A stretch of 20,172 bases of DNA, from the IMG/VR virus record IMGVR_UViG_3300017527_000452, positions 1-20,172 of that record. One strand, given 5' to 3'. Origin of the DNA: a virus. Position 1 is the stretch's first letter, and each line of letters opens with the position of its first letter. Below, one piece after another: positions 10,086 to 20,172 of this stretch. The translations under genes were made by a program, and so were the position numbers. The notes beneath the pieces are model-generated. The model ran no database searches. It saw nothing but the letters and a program-made list of their open reading frames with translations, and was not told the origin of the DNA.

Positions 10086-10466
10086 ATGGACGAAACGAAT
10101 AGGGGAATATTTTTTACAAATGAGACTTCAGGATCAATAACAAATACGCTTGTACAGGCTACGGGTGATGCTGTTATTTATTCCCGGCAAATAATAGAAG
10201 ATTCTGATAGTACAACCGAAAGAACTCTTTTATTGAATTGCCCGGACGATGATACAAGCACACCGACGATTTTAATTAAAATCCGTCTAAAAATTGGCAC
10301 AAGCTGGACTGCTTATACAACAATTCAAACGGCAACAGCAGTACCGACCGAGTTTAAAATTAGTTCATATAATCAAAGTTGGTGGGTAAAAAACAACGGT
10401 GTTCAGTTTGAGATTACAAAGGCCGGGGCCGGGGCCGTAACGCATGCAAAGGGCCAGTGGATATGA
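10086..10466 (+). CDS. Hypothetical tail-tip protein (126 aa)
   Basis: A small protein without signal peptide or membrane segment, rich in T, S and I, with a beta pattern (TERTLLLNCPDDD, ILIKIRLKIGTSWTAYTTIQ). Its ATG follows the previous stop directly, and its TGA overlaps the tail spike start in an ATGA junction. The place between minor tail protein and spike suggests a small tail-tip or spike-anchoring component; the family is not recognised. Confidence 0.55.
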   Translation: MDETNRGIFFTNETSGSITNTLVQATGDAVIYSRQIIEDSDSTTERTLLLNCPDDDTSTPTILIKIRLKIGTSWTAYTTIQTATAVPTEFKISSYNQSWWVKNNGVQFEITKAGAGAVTHAKGQWI

Positions 10467-12022
10467 GAATATTACTATTATTATTAATTCCCTATATTCT
10501 TCTCGGCCAACGTGTCAGGGGAATCGACCTTACAGACTCGGCTAAAGATACGGTTGACGTAAGGGCTAAATCTGTTGTAAGTGATTCCCTAAATGTATCT
10601 ACTGCTGATGATACCATAGCTTTGAAATTAAAATCATTATCAGAAGGCCGTATATGTTATTTAAAACAACTCTCATCTGCCAATAGTAATGGCGGTGGTT
10701 ATTTTGTAACTCGTTCTGCTTCTTTTTGTGAAACGGTATTGGGCGATTCTACTGTTGATGGGAAAATAATTGTATCTCATCCAACCGCAGGTAAAAGGTG
10801 GGTTAGAGAAAGTGTCATAAGGCAAAGAACAATATCGTTTCTTGATATGGGGGCAATTAGAGATAGTAGTGCAAGCGCATCTACCGAGATACAGGCCGCT
10901 TTAGACTTGGCATCTACATTAAATTGTGAAGTTTATGGAGATGAAGGATATTATCTATTAACAGATTCATTGCATTTCCCGCCAGATGTAAAAATGAGTA
11001 ATCATAGGGGATGTTGGTTTATAGTTAAATCTAATATAAGAGGGATAGTGGTAGATGACAGGAATACTATATCTACATATGCTTTTAATGTTATAACTGA
11101 TGATTATACGAAACCATTGATCTCGTTTGAACAGACTACCGGTAGACATAATGATTGTATTATAGAGAATGGTATTATATGGGGGCCTTATTATACTCCA
11201 GGTTTTACACCTACACAAATATCTTTTGACGGTAATGGAGGAAGAGGAATTGAAATTGAGATGACTGTAGCTGGTGGGTATGCTTTTTATAATAAATTCT
11301 TAAAAAATGCTATATTTGGTTTTGACTATCCTATTTATATGGGAGAAAACACTACTGGGGCAGGGGCCAATGCAAATATATTTTCTGATAATAGTATGAA
11401 AGTATATGAAAAATGGATTTACTTAGGTGATGATGCTGACTATAACCATCTTGATAATTGTAGTATGCAGCCGACTGTACTTGATGGAGATTCTTGTTTA
11501 GGGGCGTATAGAATTTTTGGAGATAACAACAATCTTGACATATCAGTTGCCGATGTAGGTAATATAAAATCAACCACCGTGGATAGTGCTTTTTATTTTG
11601 CTAACTCAGCTTCGGCCAATAAAACAGCGAACAACTGGCAATTATATGAAAACTATTATTTAGACGATGGTCAAAACACTGATATTTCCGGCAGGTTTTA
11701 CTATGCCGATCTTGAGATTAATGACGCTTCTCATTATAAAGGAAAACACTCATTGGATTCTGCTGGCGTTGTTCAACTACCGGCAGGCAGTTGGGGTGAT
11801 GGCGTAGTAATTATATATCCAGACTATATAAGAGCAACCTTTACATACAAGGTTGATGGTTCTACTTTTCTTGTTGATACAACTAATTCGGGCGATCTTT
11901 TTTCCACATCAAGCACGGGTGGTAAGTTCGCAATTTATGATCAGGGTGTGAACACAGCACTTAAAAACAACTTGGGTGATGGAAGGGTGATCTTGCTTCG
12001 ATATGATTACAATACACCATAG
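10463..12022 (+). CDS. Tail spike with pectate-lyase-like beta-helix and N-terminal signal peptide (519 aa)
   Basis: It begins with a signal-peptide-like MRILLLLLIPYILLGQ. Residues 60-115 match the common tail-spike head region (a GGGYFV element and then SHPTAGKRWVRE). Around 123-190 the start of a pectate-lyase-3 type right-handed beta-helix is visible: FLDMGAIRDSS, TEIQAALDLAS, then GYYLLTDSLHFPPDVKM. The remainder is long, repetitive and beta-rich with many N, G and D turns, as in polysaccharide-binding or depolymerising spikes. The ATG at 10463 overlaps the previous stop; a GTG two codons upstream is possible but would only add two residues. The export signal is unexpected in a tail protein. 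Confidence 0.7.
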   Translation: MRILLLLLIPYILLGQRVRGIDLTDSAKDTVDVRAKSVVSDSLNVSTADDTIALKLKSLSEGRICYLKQLSSANSNGGGYFVTRSASFCETVLGDSTVDGKIIVSHPTAGKRWVRESVIRQRTISFLDMGAIRDSSASASTEIQAALDLASTLNCEVYGDEGYYLLTDSLHFPPDVKMSNHRGCWFIVKSNIRGIVVDDRNTISTYAFNVITDDYTKPLISFEQTTGRHNDCIIENGIIWGPYYTPGFTPTQISFDGNGGRGIEIEMTVAGGYAFYNKFLKNAIFGFDYPIYMGENTTGAGANANIFSDNSMKVYEKWIYLGDDADYNHLDNCSMQPTVLDGDSCLGAYRIFGDNNNLDISVADVGNIKSTTVDSAFYFANSASANKTANNWQLYENYYLDDGQNTDISGRFYYADLEINDASHYKGKHSLDSAGVVQLPAGSWGDGVVIIYPDYIRATFTYKVDGSTFLVDTTNSGDLFSTSSTGGKFAIYDQGVNTALKNNLGDGRVILLRYDYNTP

Positions 12023-12030
12023 GGGAAAAT

Positions 12031-12858
12031 ATGGAAAAAATATTATTGCTTTTGGTTTTACCGTTTTTTGTATTTGCTCAGTATAGCAATCAAATGGTGC
12101 CGAATGGTGATTGTGAGTTAGATGCAAATTGGTCTAATGATGGATTCGAAGGTGGTGAGACTAACGAGAGAAACGCAGAACCGCCGGGGAAAGTCTATGA
12201 AGGAACATATTCAAGACATATACTTGTCGATGGTGCCATGGAAGGTGCTATCTCTGACAATATAATTGGCGGAGTTACATCCGGTGTTTTCTATAGATAT
12301 ACTGGTAATGTTTATATTGTCTCTGGACAATGTTATATTTCTGTATCAGGGTCTTCTAATTGGAACTATACTAATACAATTTCAACTACAGGCTCTTGGC
12401 AATTCTTTACAACTACCGTTGCAGCTTCGGGAACAGGTAATATCAGGCAAAGGTTTAGATCATCTGGAACCGGAGCAGCTCAATTCTATTTTGACGATAT
12501 TAGATTTAGGCGACAATTAGGAACTATATATATATCATCTGCTGGAAATGATGCTGCCGCTGGAGAAATTGCAACACCAATTCAAACTTGTGATGAATGC
12601 GATACGAGAGGGTATTATTCCGGTGGAGCTATTACTTTCGTGACAGACAATACTGGTACGCTCGATGTGACAGACGATGTAACTATAAATGGAACAGACT
12701 TAACAGTAGCGGCAATTAATTGTGGTGCTAATGCAGTTACATTAGAAGGAAATAATTTTACAATTACTACTTTAACAGGTACAAATATAACTGATAACCG
12801 GACAGTTACATCGGCAGATAAAGATTACGGTGGCTACGGTGGATATAAAGGTTATTAA
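12031..12858 (+). CDS. Secreted fibre-like protein with carbohydrate-binding-like domain (275 aa)
   Basis: The signal peptide MEKILLLLVLPFFVFAQ is followed by a domain (about 20-165) with the layout of a CBM4/9-type jelly roll: MVPNGDCELDANWSNDGF at the start and FYFDDIRFRR at the end. After it comes IYISSAGNDAAAGEIATPIQT, which looks like the first turn of a DUF1565/beta-helix protein. A short beta-helix-like region follows (VTINGTDLTVAAINC), then a Gly/Tyr-rich tail. A GGGG ribosome site precedes the ATG. Glycan binding at the cell or virion surface is inferred. Together with the preceding spike it forms a receptor-recognition pair. Confidence 0.6.
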   Translation: MEKILLLLVLPFFVFAQYSNQMVPNGDCELDANWSNDGFEGGETNERNAEPPGKVYEGTYSRHILVDGAMEGAISDNIIGGVTSGVFYRYTGNVYIVSGQCYISVSGSSNWNYTNTISTTGSWQFFTTTVAASGTGNIRQRFRSSGTGAAQFYFDDIRFRRQLGTIYISSAGNDAAAGEIATPIQTCDECDTRGYYSGGAITFVTDNTGTLDVTDDVTINGTDLTVAAINCGANAVTLEGNNFTITTLTGTNITDNRTVTSADKDYGGYGGYKGY

Positions 12859-13227
12859 ATGATACATCCTTATTTTTTATATTTCTGGCCTTTGTTTGTT
12901 TGGGCTTATTTTTCGTTTGATTATATCAAATTTCACTACGATGGATCAATTTATGAATGGCTGGATAGTAAGTTAGACCGTCCATGGTGGAAATTAAACT
13001 CACGACCTGAGTATAAAAATAAATATCCTTATTTTAGTATGCTTTGGTGCGGCTATCATTTATATCGGTGGCTTGCAAGTGTGTTTGCATGGTGTGGATT
13101 TGCCGCTGCATTGTACCCATATTTAGCAAGTTATTGGGCAATTGCATATTTAAGCTTGATTGTTGGCGTGTTAACCCTTACGTTACACACGTTATTATTT
13201 TTAATAATGGATTGGGTAAAGAAATGA
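12859..13227 (+). CDS. Multi-pass membrane protein, unknown (122 aa)
   Basis: A very aromatic membrane protein. A hydrophobic segment at about 4-20 (PYFLYFWPLFVWAYFSF) is followed by a charged loop with WLDSKLDRPWWK, then two long hydrophobic segments at about 68-88 and 92-118. It ends MDWVKK, which overlaps the next gene in an ATGA junction. It begins directly after the stop of the fibre gene. Small membrane proteins downstream of the spikes would fit a lysis or envelope-modification function such as a holin, but no family is recognised. Confidence 0.6.
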   Translation: MIHPYFLYFWPLFVWAYFSFDYIKFHYDGSIYEWLDSKLDRPWWKLNSRPEYKNKYPYFSMLWCGYHLYRWLASVFAWCGFAAALYPYLASYWAIAYLSLIVGVLTLTLHTLLFLIMDWVKK

Positions 13228-13595
13228 AAACATTAGTTGTATTGACATTAGCACTACTTTTTGCGTGTTCAAGCAGTCCTATTCCAGCCTATTTAAAATT
13301 TTCTCATTCTTATAAAAATGTAGTTGGCGCAGATATTGATTCTTCGGATTTGGAATTCGATATATTTATCGGTGACAGTTTAGAATTCAGAGAATATGCA
13401 GTAATTTCAGACACTTCACTTTATTTAATAGATGATCAAAGTTTATATACAGATTCAACACATTATTTCTACGTGAGAGCGTGGCAAATATCAACGGCAA
13501 GAGCGAGTGAACCGAGTGATACAACATCTGATTTTTTTCAGATCATACCACCGGATAAACCGTTCGAAGTCAAAACAATTAATTTAGGAGATTGA
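13224..13595 (+). CDS. Phage-encoded lipoprotein, FN3-like (123 aa)
   Basis: MKTLVVLTLALLFAC forms a type II signal peptide with lipobox LFAC; Cys15 would be lipidated. The mature part (about 108 residues) has spaced hydrophobic strands and a YFYVRAWQIS element like fibronectin type III or Ig domains. The chosen start removes a long hydrophobic extension in the same frame that is only antisense-like noise over the preceding gene. Position among small membrane genes could suggest an outer-membrane spanin or a superinfection-exclusion lipoprotein. It is longer than a usual o-spanin, so this stays open. Confidence 0.7.
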   Translation: MKTLVVLTLALLFACSSSPIPAYLKFSHSYKNVVGADIDSSDLEFDIFIGDSLEFREYAVISDTSLYLIDDQSLYTDSTHYFYVRAWQISTARASEPSDTTSDFFQIIPPDKPFEVKTINLGD

Positions 13596-16630: not shown

Positions 16631-17395
16631 TTAAAACGGTAATTCGCTATCTTCCTCTTGTGGCACATTCGGTTGATCATTCCTTTGTGCTGCCGGTGGA
16701 TAGTTTTCCGGATTATCAATCATTTCAGCTTCAGCTTCAGCATTATAAACATCAAGTGGCGGTTCATCCTGGGTTTCTGTTTTATCAACTGTAATTATTT
16801 CTTTTTCGGCCTTGTATACTTTGAAATATTTTTGTAATTCAATATCCATTTGAATAGCTTCCTGCTTTAACTCTTCATTAATTTTGTATACTTTTAAGGT
16901 AGGGATAAAATAATCTACCTTTCCTTTTTTAGCCGGGATCATCTCAGACATAAGAGCAAATGATTGATTGTCAATTTTAATATTTGCTTCAATGAATGGG
17001 CCTAATGACGAACCAGTGAATTTAATATTTACCATTTCGGTATTCATGTCTTTGTCAAACATCATAGCATAAACACTTTTGCAATATTGTCCACCAGCAT
17101 CTTTCAAGGCAGGTTTTATATCTTGGTAAATACCAACAATGCTTAATCCACCCTTAAATGATTTAACTGTAAGTTGTTCTTTAAAGTTGTGTATTTCATT
17201 TGAGTAAAGATAACTTTGCAAACTATCAGACCAACCCGTAATTGTAGTAAGTTCGTCCAGTATTATAAAATAAGCTGGTAATTTTAATTCAATGTTTTTT
17301 TCTTCTTGCTTATCATAATAAATCCATTTGCCATCATTAAATTTAATAAATTTTTGCGCTGGATTATTAGATTTTGTTGGGTTGCTTAAACTCAT
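16631..17395 (-). CDS. Single-stranded-DNA-binding-like protein (254 aa)
   Basis: The C terminus is long, acidic and disordered (EPPLDVYNAEAEAEMIDN...) and ends EEDSELPF, closely resembling the SSB tail (DDDIPF) that docks replication proteins. The body (about 1-180) is beta-rich, with KFIKFNDGKWIYY, LPAYFIILDELTTITGW and SKFTGSSLGPFIEA-like strands. The layout is that of phage ssDNA-binding proteins with an OB-type core, although I cannot confirm the fold. The start MSLSNPTK has AAGGAGAG upstream; an in-frame GTG at 17458, touching the previous stop, would add 21 residues and is the alternative. Replication/recombination genes follow downstream. Confidence 0.6.
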   Translation of the reverse strand: MSLSNPTKSNNPAQKFIKFNDGKWIYYDKQEEKNIELKLPAYFIILDELTTITGWSDSLQSYLYSNEIHNFKEQLTVKSFKGGLSIVGIYQDIKPALKDAGGQYCKSVYAMMFDKDMNTEMVNIKFTGSSLGPFIEANIKIDNQSFALMSEMIPAKKGKVDYFIPTLKVYKINEELKQEAIQMDIELQKYFKVYKAEKEIITVDKTETQDEPPLDVYNAEAEAEMIDNPENYPPAAQRNDQPNVPQEEDSELPF

Positions 17396-17457
17396 ATCTC
17401 TCTCCTTAAAATATTCTTTGTCATCCATACTTACATAATCTGGTTCGTAAGGATACA

Positions 17458-17616
17458 CTATTTATTATCCTTTAGCAATTTAACTTGCTTTAATTGCGCA
17501 AGGTGATTTTTCATATCCTTAATACTATGTTCTATTTTTTTAATCATAGATTCATAGTCTCTGATTTGTTGATCGTACCATGCTTCTCTTGCATTTTTTT
17601 CTATGTCTTCCGGCAT
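17458..17616 (-). CDS. Small coiled-coil hypothetical protein (52 aa)
   Basis: ATG with AGGAG five bases upstream. The sequence is helical with heptad-like spacing (YESMIKKIEHSIKDMKNHLAQLKQVKLL) and a strongly charged ending. Its stop touches a GTG in frame with the ssDNA-binding-like gene (TAGTG), so the two may be translationally coupled. Family unknown. Confidence 0.6.
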   Translation of the reverse strand: MPEDIEKNAREAWYDQQIRDYESMIKKIEHSIKDMKNHLAQLKQVKLLKDNK

Positions 17617-17682
17617 ACTTACTCCTGTATATTATAATTAACTAAAAATACGCAATTGTAAATCTACAAGCTTTGATTTGTA

Positions 17683-17823
17683 TCACAGATTAAATAAACG
17701 ATAACTCGGCACCGCAATAAAAAATGCGCCGGCAATTAAAAATATAAACGATCCATACATCTTCAGCAGAGTAAAGCAGATAAATGCAAGTATAAGCTGC
17801 AATGTTATTTTTAGTAGTATCAT
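17683..17823 (-). CDS. Small membrane protein (46 aa)
   Basis: ATG preceded by AGGTG opens a 46-residue, almost wholly hydrophobic protein with two likely membrane segments (ITLQLILAFICFTLL and SFIFLIAGAFFIAV) joined by KMYG. It lies between the 52-aa and 85-aa genes of the - strand operon. Function unknown; tiny early membrane proteins of phages often alter host envelope or exclusion, but nothing here shows that. Confidence 0.55.
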   Translation of the reverse strand: MILLKITLQLILAFICFTLLKMYGSFIFLIAGAFFIAVPSYRLFNL

Positions 17824-17850
17824 ATCAATCACCTATTGATTAGGTTAGTC

Positions 17851-18108
17851 TCAACAATTTTCGAGCTGTTTAGCTACGTGTGCATCATAATCCCGGTCAT
17901 GGTCATACGGTATCTGATAATTATCTGAGATATAATCATCACCGTACTGAGACAATTGCTCGAAATAATCTTCTGGAGTTTCATTTACAATGCTCGACCT
18001 GGATTCGATTACAACTTCACAAAATTTAACAGGACCAACCCATTCAAGCCAATAGGCTAATTGCTCGTCTGCGTCAAGCTCGTTCTTGAAATGTTCGACT
18101 GGTGTCAT
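17851..18108 (-). CDS. Acidic hypothetical protein (85 aa)
   Basis: A strongly acidic protein rich in D, E and Y (PEDYFEQLSQYGDDYISDNY) with no membrane segment or signal. AAGGAT precedes the ATG, and the next gene upstream ends two bases before. Acidic small phage early proteins sometimes act as DNA mimics or inhibitors; composition alone suggests this possibility and nothing more. Confidence 0.6.
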   Translation of the reverse strand: MTPVEHFKNELDADEQLAYWLEWVGPVKFCEVVIESRSSIVNETPEDYFEQLSQYGDDYISDNYQIPYDHDRDYDAHVAKQLENC

Positions 18109-18110
18109 GG

Positions 18111-18308
18111 TTAATCCTTTTCGTAGGTTTGCTGAACGGTTTCTATATCACGATGATATTTTTCAAGATTGTCGACTTGTTTCGTAAATACAGTTTTAAG
18201 CACGGCAACTTCGCCAGCATTATCAAGAGATGCGACACATTGATCAGTTCCATTGATAATCAAATAAACTTGTTTGCCATCTGTTTCTAAAGATGCTATT
18301 GTGTACAT
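18111..18308 (-). CDS. Hypothetical protein (65 aa)
   Basis: A small protein with an N-terminal beta meander (MYTIASLETDGKQVYLIINGT) and a C-terminal helix (NLEKYHRDIETVQQTYEKD). AAGGAG lies seven bases before the ATG. It is part of the - strand early operon. Family not recognised. Confidence 0.65.
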   Translation of the reverse strand: MYTIASLETDGKQVYLIINGTDQCVASLDNAGEVAVLKTVFTKQVDNLEKYHRDIETVQQTYEKD

Positions 18309-18336
18309 TATATTCTCCTTTATAAACTGATGTTCA

Positions 18337-18495
18337 CTAACTATTCCGGCCTCGGGTTTGTTTTTCTATTATTCTTTCTAAATTGGTTATTTCTTCCATA
18401 AGGCTAAAAATCAATTCTTTCTGTTTTGGAAATTTATCTTTTACATATTCTAATGCAAGTTTTGATTTTTGTAGTTTCAATTCTTCGAATGTCAT
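18337..18495 (-). CDS. Small helical hypothetical protein (52 aa)
   Basis: An ATG with a weak AAAGAG upstream opens a charged helical protein (TFEELKLQKSKLALEYVKDKF, then MEEITNLERIIEKQ) ending RGRNS. It would be the first gene of the - strand operon, next to the divergent non-coding region. Family unknown. Confidence 0.55.
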   Translation of the reverse strand: MTFEELKLQKSKLALEYVKDKFPKQKELIFSLMEEITNLERIIEKQTRGRNS

Positions 18496-18641
18496 TTTAC
18501 ACTCTTTTTATAATTAAAGTTGATCAAATATATCAGGTCCTCGACCAACTAGCTGTGACCGTCCTCACTAATTCGTAAAAATAAAATGCGAATAAAAATA
18601 TATTTGCATTATGGAAAATAATTGTTTATGCTTTTATCAGC
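18496..18641. promoter_or_regulatory. Divergent intergenic region with candidate promoter and operator
   Basis: No gene is visible. It separates the - strand operon from the + strand RNA/tRNA region, so it should hold promoters for both. On the - strand TATATTTG (18532-18525) fits the Bacteroidota-type -7 element (TAnnTTTG), but I see no matching -33 box at the usual distance. An imperfect inverted repeat, ATTCGTA / TGCGAAT with 9-base spacing (18571-18593), is a candidate repressor site. Confidence 0.3.
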
Positions 18642-18761
18642 ACGTCGTGAGACGTTTGACATAACAGGCCCGTCAAAGCCTATTGCATAACAGAGACCGT
18701 TTATTGAAATGGTCGTCCTTCCCTTTACTGTTGTGGGGGAATTTGACGAGGACGACTTTTT
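18642..18761 (+). ncRNA. Candidate structured RNA ending in stem plus T5
   Basis: Several perfect pairings occur in 120 bases: ACGTC/GACGT (18642-18655), TTTGAC/GTCAAA (18655-18677), GACCGTTT/AAATGGTC with a 4-base loop (18695-18714), and GTCGTCCT/AGGACGAC (18712-18719 with 18749-18756) followed by TTTTT. CGTCAAA (18671-18677) can instead pair with TTTGACG (18742-18748), giving a pseudoknot with coaxial stems. It lies 21 bases upstream of the tRNA pair and has no reading frame. It could be an independent small RNA or a leader controlling the tRNAs. No known family recognised. Confidence 0.4.
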
Positions 18762-18782
18762 GAGTAAGCGGTTTTTTATTTT

Positions 18783-18864
18783 GGTACGGTTGAGCAGTTG
18801 GTGGCTCGCCTGGTTGTAGCCCAGGTTCTTAATCGACTTGTAGGTTCGAATCCTACCCGTACCA
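18783..18864 (+). tRNA. tRNA-Tyr(GTA)
   Basis: A complete class II cloverleaf. The acceptor stem is GGTACGG/CCGTACC (7 perfect pairs), the D stem GAGC/GCTC, and the anticodon stem CCTGG/CCAGG with loop TTGTAGC (anticodon GTA at 18816-18818). A long variable arm of 14 bases is present as expected for bacterial tRNA-Tyr, and the T arm is GTAGG-TTCGAAT-CCTAC. The discriminator is A; CCA is not encoded. Confidence 0.9.
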
Positions 18865-18866
18865 CT

Positions 18867-18939
18867 GCGTCCTTATGTTTCAAGGTGACGAGTGAGGCTC
18901 CAAACCTTACTGTGCAGGGTTCGATTCCCTGAGGGCGTG
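18867..18939 (+). tRNA. tRNA-Trp(CCA)-like, somewhat degenerate
   Basis: Starts two bases after tRNA-Tyr. The acceptor stem GCGTCCT/AGGGCGT has two G-U pairs and discriminator G. The anticodon stem TGAGG/CCTTA has loop CTCCAAA (anticodon CCA at 18900-18902), and the T arm CAGGG-TTCGATT-CCCTG is perfect. The D arm is weak (TGTT/GACG with G-U pairs), the usual A14 is not evident, and two bases rather than one separate it from the anticodon stem. Likely functional but divergent; a decaying copy is possible. Confidence 0.7.
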
Positions 18940-18990
18940 CATAAAGCAGGGGAGCCAAACGGAGTTTGGATTCCGTTGCAGTGTTATGTT
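18934..18990. repeat. Degenerate attC-like or hairpin element after the tRNA pair
   Basis: CATAA (18941) and TTATG (18985) flank a stem AACGGA/TCCGTT. An alternative stem CCAAAC/GTTTGG overlaps it. The outer boxes resemble those of the two clear attC-like sites to the right, but the spacers are unequal and one outer box has A in place of C. It may be a decayed third site or the terminator of the tRNA transcript (no T-run is visible). Confidence 0.25.
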
Positions 18991-19010
18991 AGCAATTTTT
19001 GGAGGATAAT

Positions 19011-19217
19011 ATGTACATAGTGGGATATTTTAACAGAAATTATTGGAATCTTTCAAGCAACGACAAGCCGATGGAATTAACCTGGATAAAAGAAACAATT
19101 ACAAAAGATGATCTGGTTAAGACTCAAAAAGAAGATGAATACCAGGTTATAGATTTAGACAGACTGATGTATTATGATCCAAAACAAAATAAATGGTTAG
19201 AACTGGAAAAAATATAA
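19011..19217 (+). CDS. Cassette-borne hypothetical protein (68 aa)
   Basis: MYIVGYFNRNYWNLSSND... is a small protein with mixed strand/helix character and a C-terminal YYDPKQNKWLELEKI. GGAGG precedes the ATG by five bases; a TTG at 18999 overlaps that site and is rejected. The stop TAA lies inside the left outer box (ATATAAC) of the first attC-like site, exactly as for integron cassette genes. Family unknown, as is usual for cassette proteins. Confidence 0.65.
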   Translation: MYIVGYFNRNYWNLSSNDKPMELTWIKETITKDDLVKTQKEDEYQVIDLDRLMYYDPKQNKWLELEKI

Positions 19218-19270
19218 CGCTTGGCATAAATTGCCAGGCTTTTAGGTCAATTTTAATGCCGTTGTTATAC
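19212..19270 (-). repeat. attC: attC-like recombination site, 59 bp
   Basis: Read on the - strand it has the attC order: R'' GTATAAC, spacer AAC, L'' starting GGCA then an unpaired T, then the loop region, L' ending TGCC, spacer AAGC, R' GTTATAT. Outer boxes pair over six bases plus one mismatch. Inner boxes pair as GGCA/TGCC, then TAAA/TTTA, then TTG/CAA. The arm at 19244-19270 carries two unpaired bases (A19256 and one T in 19251-19254); the other arm has none. That asymmetry is diagnostic of attC. It lies between the stop of one small gene and the start of the next. Confidence 0.75.
19219..19243 (+). terminator. Possible terminator formed by left half of the 59-bp site
   Basis: GCTTGGCA / TGCCAGGC with a five-base loop (one G-U pair) is followed by TTTT. 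As RNA it could terminate transcripts of the 68-aa gene. It competes with the attC fold, so both roles are possible. Confidence 0.4.
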
Positions 19271-19285
19271 GGCGAAAGGAGAATT

Positions 19286-19489
19286 ATGCAACCAATTAAC
19301 ACATTTGATATACAGCAAGAATTAGAACAAAAAGTTGAAGGACATGACGACTTGGCAATCTTTGCAAGTAAATACCCAACAAGGGTGTTAATTACATTGA
19401 ACTTCCAAATTGACGGAAAAGAATACAAACCATCGGGAAGTTATTTCATAAATCAAAATGGTGATATTGAAATTGAAAAAGCCGTATAA
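19286..19489 (+). CDS. Cassette-borne hypothetical protein (67 aa)
   Basis: AAAGGAG lies five bases before the ATG, which itself follows the GTTATAC box of the 59-bp site by 15 bases. The protein is small and soluble, with an N-terminal helix (FDIQQELEQKVEGHDDLAIF) and a C-terminal beta meander (RVLITLNFQIDGKEYKPSGSYF). Its TAA lies within the GTATAAC box of the next site, so the frame exactly fills the space between two attC-like sites. I do not recognise the family. Confidence 0.7.
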   Translation: MQPINTFDIQQELEQKVEGHDDLAIFASKYPTRVLITLNFQIDGKEYKPSGSYFINQNGDIEIEKAV

Positions 19490-19609
19490 CGCTGGCGTAA
19501 CCTGCGTTGGAAGGAATACAAATGGATGAATTTGAAGAACTAAATCAAGAAATGTGGCAAGAAATGGAAGAAGATGAAGCACGGCGTCAGGTTGACGCGA
19601 TTGTTATAC
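19484..19609 (-). repeat. attC: attC-like recombination site, 126 bp
   Basis: Outer boxes GTATAAC (19484-19490) and GTTATAC (19603-19609) are perfect 7-base inverses. Four-base unpaired spacers follow (GCTG left, GATT right). The inner boxes pair GCGT/ACGC, then AACCTG/CAGGTT, then CG/CG. Two extra bases occur only in the right arm, G19594 and T19587, matching in identity and order the extrahelical G and T known from attC bottom strands. On the - strand it reads AAC-AATC-GCGT-C-AACC, very like the left arm of classical aadA attC sites. The long loop (about 78 bases) contains the start of the methyltransferase frame. Confidence 0.8.
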
Positions 19610-20172
19610 CGCCGCCCTTCTACCAGGACGATTATGTGACTATTTATAATGCTGATTGTATGGATATAGTTGGAAGCCTTGCGCCCGATGTGATTATTAC
19701 AGACCCGCCATATCCAGATTATTATGTTGATGAATATAAATACTTCGATGGAATACTAAATTTTTTAACGGATTTTCGCTGCAAACAGTTGATTTTTTGG
19801 AGTGCAAGAAATGATTTTCCGTTGAATTATACAGCGATACATATTTGGGACAAAAGAACTGGGAACAACACAACGCAATATGAGCGAATATTTGAACGTA
19901 ATGGACAAAAGAATTATCAAATTTATCATCACTATTTTATTAATTCAACTGTTGCAGCGAATTATGCCAATGATGTTTACACAGGACACAAGAGCCAAAA
20001 GCCACAAAAATTAATGAAGGAATTAGTTAAAAAATTTAGTGAGCCAGGTGATACGATACTTGACCCATTTATGGGAAGTGGAAGCACATTATTTGCCGCA
20101 AAAGAGATGGGTCGCAAGGCGATTGGAATTGAACTAAATAAAAAGTGGTGCAAAGTTGCCGCCGATAGATTA
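19522..20172 (+). CDS. DNA methyltransferase, beta-class N6-adenine/N4-cytosine type (3' end outside window)
   Basis: The frame is open to the window end (217 residues). Motif order is catalytic DPPY first (TDPPYPDYY, residues 60-68) and then the AdoMet-binding DPFMGSGSTLFAAKEMGRKAIGIE (from 181), which defines beta-class enzymes. DPPY favours N6-adenine methylation, though N4-cytosine is not excluded. The ATG at 19522 has AAGGA upstream and adds an acidic helix (DEFEELNQEMWQEMEEDEAR) encoded inside the attC-like site. A GTG at 19636 with AGGA upstream would start just before the usual VTIYNADC opening of these enzymes and is a strong alternative. No restriction enzyme is seen. It may protect phage DNA or modify host DNA. 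Confidence 0.85.
   Translation, partial: MDEFEELNQEMWQEMEEDEARRQVDAIVIPPPFYQDDYVTIYNADCMDIVGSLAPDVIITDPPYPDYYVDEYKYFDGILNFLTDFRCKQLIFWSARNDFPLNYTAIHIWDKRTGNNTTQYERIFERNGQKNYQIYHHYFINSTVAANYANDVYTGHKSQKPQKLMKELVKKFSEPGDTILDPFMGSGSTLFAAKEMGRKAIGIELNKKWCKVAADRL

Follow-up and report, generated by a model that had tools for sequence, protein, structure and literature searches.

Introduction

Integrons are bacterial gene-capture platforms. Canonical bacterial attC sites carry their unpaired bases on the R'-L' arm; these are usually a C following the outer L' part and the A of GAC. A gene oriented with its attC is usual in bacteria, and it is not a strict requirement.

The closest described systems are attC sites in virulent phages, which were reported for a small number of genomes by Qi et al. 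2023 (PMC9892861). There, TJE1_attC1 and TJE1_attC2 recombined with IntI1, the attC directions of P12002L were given as divergent, with no general reversal stated in the parts consulted, and prophages that had captured pieces of host integrons were documented. In the reverse integrons of Treponema, intI is turned and is read toward attI in the cassette-gene direction (PMC3607928). No earlier account of a general reversal of cassette genes was found in the open-access literature searched, including the parts of Qi et al. consulted. Thus, the presence of attC in phages is already known, and the reversal of the genes relative to attC is the new element.

An earlier note on the DNA analyzed here proposed an array of integron gene cassettes in a phage genome and called it highly unusual. 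Because of the precedent of Qi et al. (PMC9892861) and the dozens of IMG/VR contigs that carry attC sites, their presence alone does not deserve that description. The interpretation given in the earlier note is partly supported, as shown below.

Results

Gene Content of the Window

The window, that is, the whole stretch of DNA analyzed, is the complete IMG/VR record of 20,172 bp. It carries the tail genes for a minor tail protein (3479) and a tape measure protein (5057), and it encodes a NinG-like nuclease. The phage had been described as of virulent type, a lifestyle that is not judgeable from a 20-kb fragment. Directly upstream of the array, a tRNA pair (18783..18940) is encoded on the plus strand, consisting of tRNA-Tyr (18783-18865) and tRNA-Trp (18867-18940). 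A palindrome between tRNA-Trp and the next gene (18939-18989) ends in GTTATGT; at about 4 bits it is not significant as attC, and it is perhaps a decayed site.

Three plus-strand genes follow. Gene 1 (19011-19217) encodes 68 aa. Gene 2 (19286-19489) encodes 67 aa, is preceded by AAAGGAG, and gave no family match in the Pfam and PHROG searches. The third gene (19522-20172) is open at the window end and encodes an N6/N4 DNA methyltransferase (PF01555, E 2.1e-24; phrog_67, E 2.6e-37), with GGAAGGA upstream of its ATG at 19522. Searches of IMG/VR found no relatives of gene 2 or of the protein encoded at 16631-17458, and an empty site corresponding to the array was found in no contig.

Structure and Strand of the Two attC Sites

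The two elements pointed out in the earlier note, of 59 bp (19212-19270, site 1) and 126 bp (19484-19609, site 2), were confirmed in coordinates and lengths. As described there, both possess TATAAC/GTTATA outer boxes, spacers of 3-4 nt, and inner boxes, and in each of them only one arm contains unpaired bases. In a structure-only scan, which does not fix the strand, they were the two best structures of this architecture in the window.

On the minus strand, site 1 reads GTATAAC AAC GGCAT ta AAATTG a CC ... GG CAATTT ATGCC AAGC GTTATAT. Its boxes are R' (19264-19270), L' (19256-19260 and 19248-19253), L'' (19223-19233), and R'' (19212-19218), with extrahelical bases at 19254-19255 and 19247 and a predicted crossover between 19217 and 19218. 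Site 2, which has a 72-nt loop, reads GTATAAC AATC GCGT c AACCTG a CG ... CG CAGGTT ACGC CAGC GTTATAC on the same strand. Here R' is at 19603-19609, L' at 19595-19598 and 19588-19593, L'' at 19495-19504, and R'' at 19484-19490; the extrahelical bases are 19594 and 19587, and the predicted crossover lies between 19489 and 19490. The predicted cut is G|TT in R'' at both sites. R' and R'' (AAC/GTT cores) form 7/7 pairs in site 2 and 6/7 strict Watson-Crick pairs in site 1. The inner L'/L'' arms are present in both, and the spacers are within the 3-5 nt range of attC sites.

In site 2, polarity is given by the C that follows the inner box and by the A of GAC; in site 1, it is given by TA and A. 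Since this minus-strand order matches that of canonical bacterial sites, the attC strand is the minus strand. The genes are on the plus strand, and therefore each cassette consists of attC followed by a reversed gene. The gene-then-attC order assumed in the earlier note thus does not hold. From the predicted crossovers, cassette A (19218-19489, 272 bp, complete) contains site 1 and gene 2, and its last three bases are the TAA stop of gene 2. Cassette B (19490-20172), which is cut by the window end, contains site 2 and the methyltransferase gene, whose start sits in the site 2 loop. The outer boxes do contain the stops of two genes, as had been noticed: that of gene 1 (19215-19217) lies inside R'' of site 1, and that of gene 2 (19487-19489) inside R'' of site 2. 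Site 2, however, does not simply separate two genes, as it overlaps the methyltransferase start and is thus not purely intergenic.

A folding check, as suggested in the earlier note, did not show the attC fold. In the unconstrained minimum-energy DNA fold of both sites, local hairpins were favored and the attC hairpin was absent; in site 1, the favored structure is a strong local hairpin with TTTT after it (GCTTGGCATAAATTGCCAGGCTTTT). The evidence for attC is therefore comparative, not energetic.

Covariance Models and Profile

Gammaproteobacterial genomes with an IntI family match were used as the source of training sites; the flanking arrays were fetched, and attC sequences were extracted. 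Covariance model R1 was built from a gap-free alignment of 45 bacterial attC sites, and R2, built to test site 2, from 20 long bacterial attC sites with a longer loop. R1 recovered about 100 attC sites in its source loci. In the window, R1 matched site 1 on the minus strand (28.1 bits, E 4.4e-5); when the filters were switched off, no other match exceeded 8.1 bits. R1 missed site 2, which at 126 bp presumably exceeds the hit length that the model allows; it also truncated a bacterial site of 129 bp. R2 matched both sites on the minus strand: site 2 with 44.1 bits (E 1e-8) and, when run with filters off over 17000-20172, site 1 with 34.3 bits (E 3.2e-7). As R2 found no attC on the far side of gene 1 in this range, gene 1 may be resident phage DNA. 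Significant matches of both models were on the minus strand only. Thus, models built from bacterial sites alone bear out the integron-type identity proposed for both elements, and the covariance test named in the earlier note was passed with the models built here.

A profile trained only on bacterial attC scored 35.7 for site 1 and 51.9 for site 2, the latter falling to 18.2 on the plus strand. Among 400 dinucleotide shuffles of the window, the largest score was 28.8 and none reached 30, and 330 kb of other DNA, from phages and bacteria, gave 21.4 at best. With R1, TJE1_attC1 and TJE1_attC2, recognized here by their position in the TJE1 genome, scored 28.1 and 23.9 bits. Because site 1 scores the same as TJE1_attC1, it is on par with a phage attC that works according to Qi et al.

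R1 also confirmed more than 100 sites in viral array loci. Across 54 phage attC sites, compensatory changes accompany the conservation of the paired arms and of the extrahelical C and A. The covariation was 0.408, compared with 0.141 for shuffled sites and 0.06-0.11 for versions slid by one column.

Integrase

No match to TIGR02249 or PF00589 was detected in the 20,172-bp record, which therefore holds no complete integron; the earlier note had seen no integrase, and the search of the rest of the record was likewise without a match. With two sites 213 bp apart and no intI, the locus is a cluster of attC sites lacking an integrase (CALIN; at least two close attC sites without intI) in phage DNA, as had been considered. 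Neither an integron integrase nor another tyrosine integrase was present in the three array-bearing or methyltransferase-bearing relatives of the window.

Among 32 other array-bearing contigs scanned, IntI was absent from 31 and present on one, L166 (3300032255_000005). This contig is a temperate phage region; besides a replicative helicase and a CII-like regulator, it encodes the small subunit of a terminase and a second integrase. At 10370-13361 it has an IntI of its own, closely preceded by a possible attI, and five attC sites. The intI start faces the array, and the attC sites are read away from intI as usual, with the cassette genes directed toward intI. L166 may represent a complete phage integron whose genes are reversed.

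Gene Orientation in Viral and Bacterial Arrays

Scanning IMG/VR with a pattern for TATAAC-type attC returned 57 stretches, and in 35 of them at least two sites were confirmed by the profile. These contigs, to which L045, L046, and the window were added, formed the first viral sample. Since a longest-ORF count was noisy, the gene between neighboring sites was assessed from its length, start codon, and ribosome site, and a bacterial control was counted alongside. In this TATAAC-type sample (37 contigs), 108 cassette genes were opposite to attC, 4 were in the same direction, and 18 were unclear. In the control of 16 gammaproteobacterial integron loci, mostly of GCCTAAC type, 5 were opposite, 69 the same, and 9 unclear. 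Fisher's test gave p 1e-39 with cassettes as the unit, and cassettes of the same array are not independent; for this reason the count by contig majority is fairer (36 opposite and 1 same in viruses, 1 opposite and 12 same in bacteria). A matched bacterial control of TATAAC type yielded one array, which was forward; this control was too small for statistics. In about 70 of the 108 opposed viral cassettes the stop codon is at the same position of the R'' box as in cassette A.

In a second viral sample, obtained by a CTAAC-type pattern scan, 64 genes were opposite, 30 the same (11 of them from one locus), and 15 unclear. Thus, the reversal is predominant, not universal, and the forward cassettes of TJE1 are an exception to it. 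IMG/VR contigs may include host DNA; a terminase on 17 of the 36 array-bearing viral contigs speaks for phage origin.

Two loci, L168 (441-12955) and L213, have attC clusters on both strands, and the genes oppose attC in both clusters with one exception in L168. A mostly forward array of at least 14 sites was observed in a viral record (L219 and L227, 2834908352_000001); it is possibly a prophage beside a host integron.

Related Phage Contigs

Blastn searches of 50,697 phage genomes with the array region and with site 1 itself yielded no useful match. In an exact pattern search, the right half of site 1 recurred in other phage contigs; four of the eight matches in viral contigs looked like chance matches in coding sequence. 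In genome contigs, the same pattern gave nine chance matches, none of them in an array.

L046 (3300025122_000063, 37 kb, with a terminase) possesses 11 attC sites, all on one strand, and the intervening genes are on the other. A 99-aa gene is present twice in this contig (88-434 and 5215-5561; 347 bp, 87% identical). The homology of the two copies starts and stops at R'' boxes and includes attC; therefore, attC and the reversed gene behave as one module. Such a duplicated block with edges at R'' boxes was seen in L046, not in the window itself. No relatives of the repeated gene were found in other viral contigs. Gene starts and signal peptides of L046 extend into attC, and at 2173-2299 and 927-1043 the attC arms also code for apparent lipoprotein signal peptides. 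In those arms, recombination-site and coding constraints look as if they overlap.

L001 encodes a methyltransferase 70% identical to that of the window, adjoining an attC with one arm only. This half site (2418-2463, covariance-model score 15.3 bits) is of the site 1 type and lacks the other inner arm. The homology between L001 and the window begins at the R' box (plus-strand GTTATAC), not at the predicted R'' crossover, which counts against the reading as mobile cassettes with reversed genes. In L104 (Polaribacter phage P12002L), a cultured phage, an attC on the plus strand (30005-30059) adjoins methyltransferase genes on the minus strand, the reversed layout.

Cargo

Among 75 proteins, almost all of them encoded in phage cassettes, we found six N6_N4 methylases, two MT-A70 proteins, one C5 methylase, and one member of the Lar restriction-alleviation family. 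Most of the remaining proteins gave no match. The cassettes were spaced at a median of 330 bp. The cargo of the window, a 67-aa protein without a family and a methyltransferase, fits this pattern.

Discussion

Our results make it very probable that genuine attC sites delimit mobile cassettes with reversed genes in this phage genome, which IntI acting in trans would move; in the window, the support comes from two sites at the edge of the fragment. Each cassette would be composed of attC and a gene opposite to it, with the stop codon forming the cassette edge, and the genes would therefore be read as part of a phage operon. The integron integrase may be supplied by the host, by another element, or by an unsequenced part of the same phage. 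Its substrate would be the folded attC strand, here the sense strand of the genes, with cleavage at G|TTATAC or G|TTATAT, so that cassettes could be inserted, excised, or duplicated. As for the window, its sites probably recombine, and the methyltransferase may protect phage DNA from host restriction.

The main competing explanation is that the sites are relics, a host integron segment that was captured by illegitimate recombination and no longer recombines. The lack of an integrase on the record and on 31 of the 32 other array-bearing viral contigs, together with the broken site of L001, would agree with this, and such capture by prophages is on record in Qi et al. (PMC9892861). However, both sites of the window retain R boxes, inner arms, and extrahelical bases, and the 54 phage sites covary. 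Captured host arrays would also be expected to be forward as in bacteria (69:5), whereas the genes of the window are reversed. We therefore regard relics as unlikely. Far less likely still is the arrangement proposed in the earlier note, in which standard cassettes lie forward on the plus strand, each gene being followed by its attC. Plus-strand stop codons do lie in the left boxes, and the point where the L001 homology begins would suit that arrangement; against it are the profile scores of the two strands, the restriction of significant covariance matches to the minus strand, and the edges of the L046 duplicate, which fall where the reversed reading predicts.

The elements might also be intergenic hairpins unrelated to attC, such as terminators, translation-control elements, or RNA-processing elements. 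The hairpin and TTTT of site 1 preferred by the unconstrained fold are the point in their favor. Yet in their boxes, long-range arms, and extrahelical bases the elements match attC sites of bacteria with E values of 1e-8 and 3e-7, and terminators predict neither a duplication at cassette edges nor attC covariation. Given the R2 matches and this covariation, the hairpin explanation is largely refuted, and we consider it the least probable of all.

Under the preferred reading of mobile cassettes with reversed genes, the reversal found in dozens of phage contigs suggests that phages maintain their own library of exchangeable cassettes. Whether many phages possess a gene-inverted cassette system of this kind, with IntI of host or phage origin moving cassettes from phage to phage and with a pool separate from the bacterial one, appears to us evenly balanced. 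Such a pool would comprise methyltransferases and small proteins, possibly anti-defense genes, in arrays read as phage operons toward attI/intI. If phage arrays are reversed as a class, they would represent a recombination system fitted to phage operons, not mere pieces of host integrons, and anti-restriction cargo would be carried in phage-adapted integron cassettes. The phage arrays bear on the open question of cassette origin, and a large set of loci is now at hand for testing.

Among known systems, the phage CALINs described by Qi et al. 2023 (Tetrasphaera phage TJE1, Polaribacter phage P12002L, and Pseudoalteromonas phage PH101) resemble the window in having attC clusters without an integrase and N6_N4 methyltransferase cargo. 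The model scores of the TJE1 sites resemble those of the window, but TJE1 has attC and genes on one strand, whereas the window is reversed. P12002L is like the window, with the detected site and the methyltransferase genes on opposite strands. The chromosomal integrons of Gammaproteobacteria (16 loci) share the attC boxes, spacers, extrahelical bases, and cassette-style spacing; they differ in that IntI is nearby and the genes run along attC, whereas phage genes are mostly opposed. Treponema reverse integrons and phage arrays have in common an unusual gene orientation inside an integron. In L166, however, the geometry of intI and attC is the usual one, and it is the cassette genes that are turned.
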